Below are positions 3,735 to 51,065 of a stretch of DNA of 64,000 nt, piece by piece (positions within the stretch are counted from its first letter, which is position 1; each line of letters opens with the position of its first letter). A program made the translations under genes and the position numbers. The stretch covers positions 186,001 to 250,000 of the forward strand of contig NZ_FNOK01000005.1 in NCBI RefSeq assembly GCF_900106995.1, in the 5' to 3' direction. The notes under the pieces are model-generated. The model had not been told where the DNA came from. It ran no database searches and was given only the letters and a program-made list of their open reading frames with translations. Origin of the DNA: Saccharopolyspora shandongensis. GTDB taxonomy: Bacteria > Actinomycetota > Actinomycetes > Mycobacteriales > Pseudonocardiaceae.

Positions 3735-4175
3735 GTGGCTGTGAAGATCAAGCTCGCGCGGATCGGCAAGATCCGCGAGCCGCACTACCGCATCGTCGTT
3801 GCCGACGCCCGCACCCGCCGCAACGGCCGGGCCATCGAGACGATCGGGCAGTACCACCCGAAGCAGAACCCGAGCGGCATCATCGTCAACTCGGAGCGGG
3901 TGCAGTACTGGCTGGGTGTCGGCGCGCAGCCGACCGAGCCGGTGCAGAACATCCTGGAGATTACCGGCGACTGGCAGAAGTTCAAGGGCCTGCCGGGCGC
4001 CGAGGGCCGGCTGAAGGTCGCCGAGCCGAAGCCGAGCAAGCAGGAGCTGTTCGAGGCCGCGCTGGCCGCCGCCGGCGAGGAGCCCACCACCGAGGCCACC
4101 ACCCCGAAGAAGAAGGGTGCGAAGAAGGCCGAGGACAAGGCTGAAGAGAAGAAGTCCGAGGAAGGTCAGGCGTGA
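3735..4175 (+). CDS. rpsP: 30S ribosomal protein S16
   Basis: This small-subunit protein is needed for assembly of the 16S 5' domain. The start is GTG, preceded by GAGGAG at 3718-3723. The first 80 residues are classic S16: the [11 protein letters not shown] start, [11 protein letters not shown], and [10 protein letters not shown]. Beyond the family core of about 85-100 residues there is a tail of about 50 residues rich in Lys, Glu and Ala ([11 protein letters not shown]), a common actinobacterial extension. The stop overlaps the GTG of the KH-domain gene, so the two are translationally coupled at the head of an rpsP-khpA-rimM-trmD operon. Confidence 0.97.
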
Positions 4176-19634: not shown

Positions 19635-19749
19635 GAGGTTTTTCCAACCTCGTTTTGCGTGGCGGTGCGGGTGGCGGAACTTCAGAGGCTTCCTGGTCTG
19701 TGGGTGCCCCTCCTGATGTATGTCCGATACACGGCGGAGGGGCCGTCCT
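19635..19749 (+). repeat. Dispersed intergenic repeat, copy 1 (truncated at its 3' side)
   Basis: These 115 bases match copy 2 at 40843-40956 with only three differences (one T indel and two substitutions). The copy starts with the small hairpin GAGGTT-TTTCC-AACCTC. The main hairpin is CCCCTCC (19707-19713) with GGAGGGG (19736-19742), enclosing an inner GTAT/ATAC stem. Similarity stops after CCGTCCT, 20 bases before the methyltransferase start. The second hairpin seen in copies 2 and 3 is absent here. Confidence 0.9.
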
Positions 19750-19769
19750 GCGTCGGAGAGAGGACAGCG

Positions 19770-40830: not shown

Positions 40831-41119
40831 CGCAGTTTCAATGAGGTTTTCCAACCTCGATTTGCGTGGCGGTGCGGGTGGCGGAACCTCAGAGGCTTCC
40901 TGGTCTGTGGGTGCCCCTCCTGATGTATGTCCGATACACGGCGGAGGGGCCGTCCTCGCCGAGGGAACCCCGAAGGGGTGGGCACCGTGAACCCGCGGCG
41001 GTGCAAGTGTCGTAGGTGGGCTATGCGCCTGCGGCGCATACGGCACCCCATCGACGTGCACCTTTGCGACCCGCGGCTGCGGGCTCACCAGGATGAAAAA
41101 GGTTCAATTGAAACTGCGG
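40831..41119 (+). repeat. Dispersed intergenic repeat, copy 2, inside a split palindrome
   Basis: The 260-base body (40843-41102) begins with sequence nearly identical to copy 1. Its main hairpin is CCCCTCC (40914-40920) with GGAGGGG (40943-40949). A second hairpin is ATGCGCC-TGC-GGCGCAT (41023-41039). The body is flanked by CCGCAGTTTCAAT (40830-40842) and its exact complement ATTGAAACTGCGG (41107-41119). TTCAAT is present on both sides (40837-40842 and 41103-41108). Together this looks like an insertion with a 6-base duplication in a palindrome of the GTTTCAATTGAAAC family. The 40809-41212 gap holds this and a terminator. Confidence 0.85.
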
Positions 41120-49787: not shown

Positions 49788-49805
49788 CGCCGGTCCGCCG
49801 CGATC

Positions 49806-49837
49806 TCCGGTGAAATCGGAACGCCGATTTCACCGGA
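49806..49837. terminator. Stable inverted repeat behind the PIN toxin gene
   Basis: TCCGGTGAAATCGG pairs perfectly with CCGATTTCACCGGA around an AACG loop. There is no T tract on either side. Likely a terminator. Its GAAATC/GATTTC arms resemble the short palindrome family. Confidence 0.6.
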
Positions 49838-49916
49838 AATCGCGGCCCGGCGGGGCATGGTGCACTCGTGGCCGCCACCCGGAGTTCGGGCGGGCATCGC
49901 GGTTACAGTGGGGGGC

Positions 49917-50774
49917 ATGCCGGTTCGAGCTCCGTTGAAGCCAGGCGTGCAGACGCCGCGTCGCCCAGTCCCAGCGCACATCGAGCGCCCCGAGTACGTT
50001 GACAAGCCGGCTCCCAAGCGCAGCACCGACCCGTACGTGCAGCCGCCCGAGGTCATCGAGGCGATGCGGGTGGCGGGCAAGCTCGCCGCGCAGGCGCTGG
50101 TCGAGGCGGGCAAGGCGGTGCAGCCGGGCGCGACCACCGACGAGGTCGACGCGGTGGTGCACGAGTTCTTCTGCGACCACGGCGTGTACCCGTCGACGCT
50201 GGGCTACCGGGGCTTCCCGAAGTCCTCCTGCACGTCGCTGAACGAGGTGATCTGCCACGGGATCCCGGACTCGACGGTGATCGAGGACGGCGACATCGTC
50301 AACGTCGACGTCACCGGCTTCATCGGCGGCGTCCACGGCGACACCAACGCGACGTTCCTGGCCGGCGAGGTCTCGGAGGAGGTGCGCTTGCTGGTGGAGC
50401 GCACCCACGAGGCGCTGATGCGCGGCATCAAGGCGGCCAAGCCGGGGCGGCAGCTCAACGTGATCGGCCGGGTCATCGAGTCCTACGCCAAGCGGTTCGG
50501 CTACGGCGTGGTCCGCGACTTCACCGGGCACGGCATCGGCCGCGCGTTCCACAGTGGACTGGTGATCCTGCACTACGACGAGCCGTCGGTGCAGACCGTC
50601 CTGGAGCCGGGCATGACCTTCACCATCGAGCCGATGATCACCCTCGGCACCCACGAGTACGACATGTGGAGCGATGGCTGGACGGTGACGACGAAGGACA
50701 AGAGCTGGACGGCCCAGTTCGAGCACACCATCCTGATCACCCAAGACGGCAACGAAATCCTGACCCTGCCCTGA
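49917..50774 (+). CDS. map: Methionine aminopeptidase (type I, with N-terminal PxxP extension)
   Basis: 285 residues from the ATG at 49917. The N-terminal extension ([20 protein letters not shown]) is typical of the mycobacterial second MetAP (type Ic). Metal ligands: Asp in [11 protein letters not shown] and [10 protein letters not shown], His in [12 protein letters not shown], Glu in [10 protein letters not shown] and Glu in [10 protein letters not shown]. It removes initiator methionine. It lies in the same dxr...map neighbourhood as in Mycobacterium. Confidence 0.95.
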
Positions 50775-50776
50775 TT

Positions 50777-50956
50777 TGGGGTTCCAGGCTCGTTCTGCGT
50801 AGCGGTGCGAGTAGCGGAACCTCAGACGCCTTCTCGCTGTGGGATCCCCGACTTACGTATGACCAATACGCGGCGTCGGGGCTGTCCTCGCGAGAAGGCT
50901 TCTGAGAACCCGCGGCGGTGCGGGTTGCGAGGGTGGGCTAAGCGGCTGCGCCGCTT
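50777..50956 (+). repeat. Dispersed intergenic repeat, copy 3 (diverged, most complete fold)
   Basis: It aligns to copies 1 and 2 along its length (TGCGTAGCGGTGCGAGTAGC against TGCGTGGCGGTGCGGGTGGC). The main hairpin CCCCGAC (50846-50852) with GTCGGGG (50875-50881) encloses GTAT/ATAC. A further outer stem pairs 50822-50837 with 50890-50905 (GCCTTCTCGC with GCGAGAAGGC plus TCAGA with TCTGA). The second hairpin is AAGCGGC-TGC-GCCGCTT (50940-50956). Stem changes relative to copy 2 are compensated. Confidence 0.85.
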
Positions 50957-51065
50957 GCGGCGGCTATGAGTCGTGAGATTCGAGCGTCGCGGCGGCGGTT
51001 GTGCGTTCGCGATGCGCACCTTCGGCTGTCCGCATCGGCTTTTGGTTTGGTCTGGTTTGGTCGGC

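Follow-up and report, generated by a model that had tools for sequence, protein, structure and literature searches.

Does a fold whose arms change together mark a sequence kept for its shape, or the unit that moves? The question is raised by three related intergenic copies of a repeat in the stretch of DNA analysed here (the window, 64,000 nucleotides, C67:186001-250000 of the 10.15-Mb genome G000), for which a preliminary description held that covariation means either selection on the fold, in RNA or single-stranded DNA, or a mobile unit. Direct reading of the sequence reproduced the three copies and both of the stems described. The main stem, P2, reads CCCCTCC/GGAGGGG in copy 1 (19707-19713/19736-19742) and copy 2 (40914-40920/40943-40949) and CCCCGAC/GTCGGGG in copy 3 (50846-50852/50875-50881, + strand), so that at two of the seven positions both partners differ (T-A becomes G-C, C-G becomes A-T). 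The second hairpin likewise carries two double changes between copy 2 (ATGCGCC-TGC-GGCGCAT, 41023-41039) and copy 3 (AAGCGGC-TGC-GCCGCTT, 50940-50956, + strand, the 3′ hairpin P5), and the inner GTAT/ATAC stem is present, in copy 3 as hairpin P3 (CGTAT...ATACG, 50856-50870, + strand). To these stems, which stand, copy 3 adds an outer stem that the earlier list lacked, P1, of 16 bp with one mismatch, formed by CTCAGACGCCTTCTCG (50821-50836, + strand) and CGAGAAGGCTTCTGAG (50891-50906, + strand). All four helices were placed in copy 3 by direct reading and the covariation count.

The extents of the copies needed some revision. Copy 3, a short form on the + strand (50777-50960), starts 2 nt past the stop codon (TGA, 50772-50774) of ORF 49857-50774. 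This ORF encodes an M24 metallopeptidase, by recognition probably a methionine aminopeptidase, whose 98% identity to its Saccharopolyspora elongata counterpart places the host in Saccharopolyspora. The ends of copy 3 are decayed, with no intact terminal repeat or duplication visible. The predicted RNA fold of copy 3 is stable on either strand (z = -5.2 on + and -5.4 on -), and 0/200 shuffles folded as well on either one. Copy 2 is the longer variant (40843-41105, + strand), with degenerate inverted repeats GAGGTTTTCC... and ...GATGAAAAAGGTTC whose limits were set by direct reading and by comparison with other long-form copies, and it is flanked by AAT on both sides (40840-40842, inside the palindrome CCGCAGTTTCAATTGAAACTGCGG, and 41106-41108; both + strand, read directly). 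Copy 1, a long form read directly on the + strand (19635-19750), ends early, being truncated past the main hairpin, and its orthologous site in genome G004 (C55:151393-151599), behind the same gene, is occupied by a complete long-form copy that runs the other way. At about 49801-49821 (+ strand) the window has a site without the element; at the orthologous palindromic place in S. elongata/G004 there is a copy of the long form (L050, about 3904-4167), the junction being inexact.

The family is not limited to these three copies. With copy 3 as query, its own genome yielded 354 first-look candidates, and the 40 that were scored were all matches (best after self, E 2.6e-64). Profile searching of 793,623 tiled bases of G000 detected 28 copies, which would make about 358 in a whole genome were the tiles representative; with blastn (E 1e-3) the same tiles gave 31 merged places, short pieces counted. 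Across three genomes (1,593,623 bases) the profile found 68 copies, the 28 of G000 included, and 52 of the 68 cover at least 120 model positions. Matches to copy 3 at E <= 1e-5 were present in 21 of 22 Saccharopolyspora genomes, the window's own among them, with few copies in some (none in G016, 2 in G009, 7 each in G013 and G021). A covariance model of the core, built from 42 copies, was then used at family and order level under stricter filters that lose weak matches: it matched 41 of 150 host-family genomes sampled, in 13 of 46 genera, and in an order-level sample 12 of 200 genomes, of which 11 belong to the host family and one, a marginal match, lies outside it. None of the Rfam 15 families reached its gathering score in the window, and a relaxed Rfam search of four loci returned weak microRNA matches in L001 and L003 only; a group II intron or other known RNA, considered in both searches, was rejected. 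These results showed that the repeat is a real, large element, of roughly 350 estimated copies in G000, spread through the host family and with real covariation.

The covariation was measured on a defined set. From 2.35 Mb, 122 copies were collected, 100 of which were long enough and aligned; the formal set of 42 of these 100, chosen for length and diversity among near-full copies, was reached by a length and gap filter (65 copies), removal of close duplicates (44), location (43) and the dropping of one copy with an inserted arm. The helices comprise P1 (16 bp), P2 (7 bp), P3 (5 bp), P5 (7 bp) and a tentative P4. Over the 42 copies 88.9% of the cells were paired, as against 34-43% with partners slid, and cells changed on both sides numbered 149 compared with 47.8 in shuffles. 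The covariation score was 0.242 against 0.084 in shuffles, none of 500 shuffles reaching it, and at most 0.053 in slides; the tool cautions that sets of related sequences may score above their shuffles even where there is no structure. P5 was 100% paired with two covarying pairs. Four stems thus lie far beyond the shuffled and slid controls. The fourth hairpin P4 (AACCCGC...GCGGGTT) was left unsupported, its left side being kept, its inside mostly unpaired and 71.8% of its cells paired.

Placement was determined with a codon-usage gene caller made for the analysis. In the 68-copy set, 57 copies follow a gene in sense orientation (29 between tandem and 28 between convergent genes), 7 are antisense to both neighbours and 4 lie between divergent genes; in none of the 68 does the overlap with a called gene exceed 25 nt. 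Sense copies follow the stop codon at a median of 14 nt, 40 of the 57 within 25 nt. Further hand-picked stretches, after three edge cases were dropped and with some rows being parts of nested copies, gave 47/58 sense in G018 and 20/26 in G001 (67/84 in total). A palindromic target predicts no such orientation bias, which would come from selection at gene ends or from biased insertion.

Orientation also follows replication. In G001 it flips at dnaA, and 76 of 99 chromosome sites are co-oriented with replication among the matches listed (100 of 149), one listed site on another contig having been dropped; the corresponding count in G018 is 63/90 among the matches listed (100 of 160), with the terminus assumed opposite dnaA and tandem pairs merged. 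Where genomes of other genera had a DnaA-like frame at the start of the contig, again with the terminus assumed opposite, 12/12, 15/18, 7/7 and 2/4 sites were co-oriented among the top-scoring rows listed. G098 (10/18) and G137 (7/11), counted under the same assumption and among the top-scoring rows listed, were set aside as having no DnaA-like frame at the start. Part of this bias is explained by gene direction, since 70% of the called genes in the G001 tile and 56% in the G018 tile point with the fork. Convergent pairs are informative because gene sense leaves the choice open there, and near-full copies within them were co-oriented in 7/7 cases in the G018 tile, 3/4 in the G001 tile and 14/20 loci in G018 windows. 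The observed co-orientation beyond gene direction is suggestive.

Intact ends of the short form were found in G018, as inverted repeats TGCCTGTCTTTGAAC...GTTCAAAGACAGGCA. A scan of the fetched stretches for end pairs gave 39, overlapping ones counted apart, 38 of them in G018, where 23 core-bearing units have both ends (158-280 bp, 14 of them at 227-230 bp). The pentamer CTNAG lies one base outside the left end in 20 of the 23 and outside the right end in 19, and is identical on both sides in 16; the duplication can be read as 5 bp (CTNAG) or 3 bp (TNA), an ambiguity that a passage of PMC4482050 states for the IS5-related eukaryotic group. In 8 of the 23 units an open frame of 100 codons or more ends with the TGA at the target (7 CTGAG, 1 CTGAT), 5 are nested in another copy at GCGGAAC-CTCAG and 10 are at other sites. 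A called gene ends exactly at the target in 6/23 units, and in others the nearest called stop lies 7-73 nt or over 900 nt away. The stop-codon target thus accounts directly for no more than 6-8 of the 23 units.

A candidate partner for these ends was seen three times in G018, namely a 958-bp IS with a 319-codon open stretch and the same ends and target as the element. Its product of 277 aa is an IS5-family transposase (NCBIfam NF033580, transpos_IS5_3, E 6.9e-59; Pfam DUF4096, E 1.2e-27, and DDE_Tnp_1, E 1.5e-23), 62% identical to the IS5 transposase of a Streptomyces coelicolor plasmid. IS and MITE have the ends alone in common, and TGCCTGTCTTTGA is found in both element copies and IS, in G018 only. 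The three IS copies are 99.6-100% alike and all sit at the same GCGGAAC-CTCAG place inside other copies; the five nested units and the three IS copies have CTCAG or CTGAG on both sides, and an uninterrupted copy has the pentamer once. The element itself holds no transposase frame, since among units bounded by both ends the longest open stretch is 70-76 codons at lengths of 212-230 bp and up to 112 codons at 275-337 bp.

Outside G018 the short-form ends are mostly decayed (copies in G000, G004, G019 and G001), so copy 3 was assigned by its core and by its relatives. For the short form, comparison of filled with empty sites in G000 and G004 did not give clean junctions: at C43:220346 there is TCCTTC with additional bases, and the copy at G004:C55:41815-41969, compared with G000 C67:96730-96771, shows an imperfect repeat of 11-16 bp around a stop codon. 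The latter copy sits between two genes that are nearly adjacent in G000 and that, from reading, look like leuC and leuD. Three candidate empty sites (G4C88:87673, C43:251231 and G4C4:13500) proved to be deletions or replacements rather than insertions, and two sites called present by length (C67:106017 and C67:277363) have no homologous element in the alignment. In the 793.6 kb scanned of the window's own genome, no autonomous IS with either end set was found.

The long form, shown in G000 and G004, ends in GAGG(G)TTTTTC...GAAAAACCCTC. At three filled and empty junctions between these genomes (C43:211.7 kb, C67:68.2 kb and C67:165.5 kb) we read a 3-bp duplication of AAT or ATT; the overlaps computed by script at the first two, 6 and 5 bp, include bases common to the element ends. 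At two of the three junctions the empty site is a palindrome located behind a gene, for example CGCAGTTTCAATTGAAACTGCG, and copy 2 by itself shows the same pattern, with its AAT repeats lying within a palindrome. TTTCAAT...ATTGAAA, considered as the element's own ends, turned out to be the target palindrome, which is intact at empty sites. No autonomous IS with the long-form GAGG(G)TTTTTC ends was found in the stretches scanned. The target is consistent with the ANT given for IS5 in PMC4482050, as far as its text was available, and suggests assignment of the long form to the IS5 type.

Other palindromes were seen around these places. REP-like palindromes of the CCGCAATTTCAATGGAAATC and CGCAGTTTCAATTGAAACTGCG types lie behind genes as long-form targets in G000 (C43 about 211.7 kb and C67 about 68.2 kb) and in the G004 counterparts, and at G004:C55, about 89.7 kb, several AATTTTAGGCAAAATT palindromes are clustered where G000 has a long-form copy. 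Another 3′-end hairpin, with arms GTGTCGCT...AGCAGCAC or a close variant, occurs at G000 C67:110773-110862 and C67:282570-282729 and at G004:C88, about 45.9 kb; at the sites of this hairpin the relative carries the element studied here.

Taken together, the repeat is very probably a non-autonomous mobile element (MITE), in which a hairpin-rich conserved core is set on IS5-type transposon ends. Judged from the ends in common, the IS5 transposase of the 958-bp IS presumably mobilises the short form in trans. The short form, as seen in G018, inserts into CTNAG, with duplication of CTNAG or the inner TNA, and for a quarter to a third of the units there this target contains the stop codon of a gene, as C-TGA-G or, once, C-TGA-T; insertion regenerates the stop, so that the gene stays intact. 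The element's outer stem starts with CTCAG, and copies and IS therefore insert into other copies, building mosaics. The long form carries the same core between GAGG(G)TTTTTC ends, with 3-bp AAT/ATT duplications. Copies exchange hairpin modules, so that matched arms arrive together, and template-switch copying of hairpin arms may add to the paired changes.

Whether the paired changes also reflect selection was examined through the stem defects. Over all cells of the 100 copies there were 110 G.T, 315 A.C and 212 other mismatches, but 141 of the A.C defects lie in the unsupported P4 and 60 at one mostly-C.A position of P1; leaving out P4 (with its 2 G.T) and that position gives 108 G.T against 114 A.C. 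When the count is limited to distinct stems carrying no more than two defects, P4 and the C.A position again left out, there are 27 G.T, 24 A.C and 27 others. Pairing in a sense RNA should clearly favour G.U. The strand signature of RNA pairing, in which G.U is tolerated and A.C is not, was absent from these counts, which points to DNA-level processes or to both strands; a tRNA control of this wobble test comprised three usable tRNAs, too few to rely on.

In orthologous copies of G000 and G004, whose flanking matches are 94-98% identical, entire modules have been replaced. At C67:74656 this concerns the left arm, at C67:80001 the right, at C67:115392 both arms and at C43:243267 the middle. At C67:226833 a long and a short form stand behind the same gene. 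Copies without the middle hairpin were also found (G000 C43:101230-101278 and C43:135865-135918, and C43:262627 compared with G004:C88, about 34.6 kb), and loss or gain of the middle hairpin is bounded by direct repeats, GGCGGTGCGGGT or of the GGTGGTC type. The preliminary description had counted copies with uncompensated stem changes as evidence against its claim, and some exist: four G018 chimeras join a CCCCTCC arm to a GTCGGGG arm, so that P2 is mispaired, and these chimeras have multiplied.

It is nearly an even chance that the paired changes are mutational in origin rather than selected, template switching copying arm onto arm and gene conversion moving whole hairpins. One-sided intermediates are few (26 cells changed on one side against 149 on both, in the 42 copies), which favours this origin, as do the module swaps at orthologous sites and the near-equality of G.T and A.C defects. 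The mechanism has also been argued for RNA stems in PMC8794818, which in the portion available holds that template switching creates and maintains hairpins and offers the nearest precedent for covariation without selection. A mutational origin gives no account, however, of joining motifs that are near-constant across genera: in ten loci, L256-L265, two of them from the genus (L256 and L257) and eight from other genera, GTCCTCG was found in 10/10 and GAACCCGCGG in 9/10. Because copies swap hairpins among themselves, the matched base changes are by themselves no proof of a working RNA. Of the preliminary description, the covarying stems and the mobile unit stood; that covariation means selection on the fold did not, given the defect counts, the module swaps and the mispaired chimeras, and such selection is possible rather than established.

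A reading that joins mobility to function is conceivable, though less likely than not. The core would be a functional folded RNA or single-stranded DNA, kept across Pseudonocardiaceae for its shape; two or more different IS5-type end sets would have taken it up and carried it to the 3′ ends of genes. There it would serve the host as an orientation-dependent 3′-end signal, read with transcription and replication, and the CTCAG at its stem base would offer a safe landing pad that draws transposons off genes.

That the core is simply a structured RNA, putatively transcribed with the preceding gene as an mRNA 3′-end terminator, stabiliser or processing signal and covarying and sense-oriented through selection, seems unlikely. 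Covariation beyond the controls and the sense placement close behind stop codons, in the 68-copy set and in the further stretches, agree with such an RNA, as does the occurrence of the core in 13 of the 46 genera sampled, with P2 as CTTTTTC/GAAAAAG in a locus of another genus (L258). The S. soli orthologue of copy 3 has two compensated pairs in the outer stem relative to S. elongata, but its inner hairpin P3 is broken. Against an RNA also stand the similar G.T and A.C defects (108 vs 114 and 27 vs 24), the unsupported P4, and stem columns without clear excess variability over unpaired ones (0.60 vs 0.45 bits, p 0.18).

Spread as a REP/BIME by a Y1 (RAYT/TnpA-REP) transposase acting on the lagging-strand template is highly improbable. 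Hairpins, mosaic build, a place close behind stop codons and an orientation bias along replication would suit it, but the ends and duplications are of IS5 type and PF01797 was present in 9 of 22 genus genomes and not found in the copy-rich G001, G002, G003, G008, G012 and G018, so that Y1/RAYT as a necessary mobiliser was ruled out. A SINE-like or group II-like RNA element spread by reverse transcription, for which an A-rich 3′ tail (CAAAGACAAA-like in many copies), insertion behind genes and orientation bias might speak, can practically be dismissed, since the tails proved to be the 3′ inverted repeat (in G018 that of the 5′ end), RVT_1 was present in 7/22 genus genomes and not found in several copy-rich ones (G001 and G018), and no Rfam match was obtained in the window.

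The element as a MITE on IS5-type ends can be set beside known systems. It resembles IS5-family MITEs in its inverted repeats common with an IS5-family IS, its CTNAG target and duplication, its lack of a transposase frame and its hundreds of copies; it differs from them in having a large covarying core in many genera of one bacterial family, one core with two different end sets, a GC-rich sequence and a strong sense orientation behind genes, MITEs being typically AT-rich and in AT-rich intergenic regions according to a section of PMC10969869. Like REP/BIME sequences, for example those of Escherichia coli, it consists of palindromic modules in mosaics that are targets of IS insertion (for REP/BIME palindromes, PMC1525189, in the text available), but it is not tied to a Y1/RAYT enzyme, its unit is far longer and it moves as an inverted-repeat element with target duplication. 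The nearest functional precedent is the E. coli REPs near stop codons in PMC12306157, whose available part counts 446 of 4,072 within 15 nt of the stop codon, cites an earlier study that proposed 260 of 496, and discusses them as candidates for translational control. With PHIS/IS5 transposons the element has in common the ANT triplet (AAT/ATT in the long form) and TNA within CTNAG (short form), the latter given for the IS5-related group in the same available text of PMC4482050; that CTNAG group is eukaryotic, unlike the present element. The searched portions of the open-licence PMC literature, including PMC3733652, PMC6006769, PMC12306157, PMC4482050, PMC10969869, PMC8794818 and PMC1525189, contain no description of the element. 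The preliminary description knew no named family of this layout, and this holds as far as the Rfam search of the window goes, but the kind is already known, an IS5-type MITE in a BIME-like mosaic; the structure-rich core and the orientation are what is unusual.

The findings bear on how covariation is read. Textbook compensatory changes may arise in mobile DNA through module exchange and, it is suggested, perhaps template switching, and for covariation inside repeat families the strand signature is worth testing before an RNA is claimed. They also provide a simple route to placement at gene 3′ ends, in that the transposon target C-TGA-G can hold a stop codon that is restored on insertion. Collectively, in these antibiotic-producing actinomycetes an element of about 350 copies reshapes the 3′ ends of genes between close relatives.
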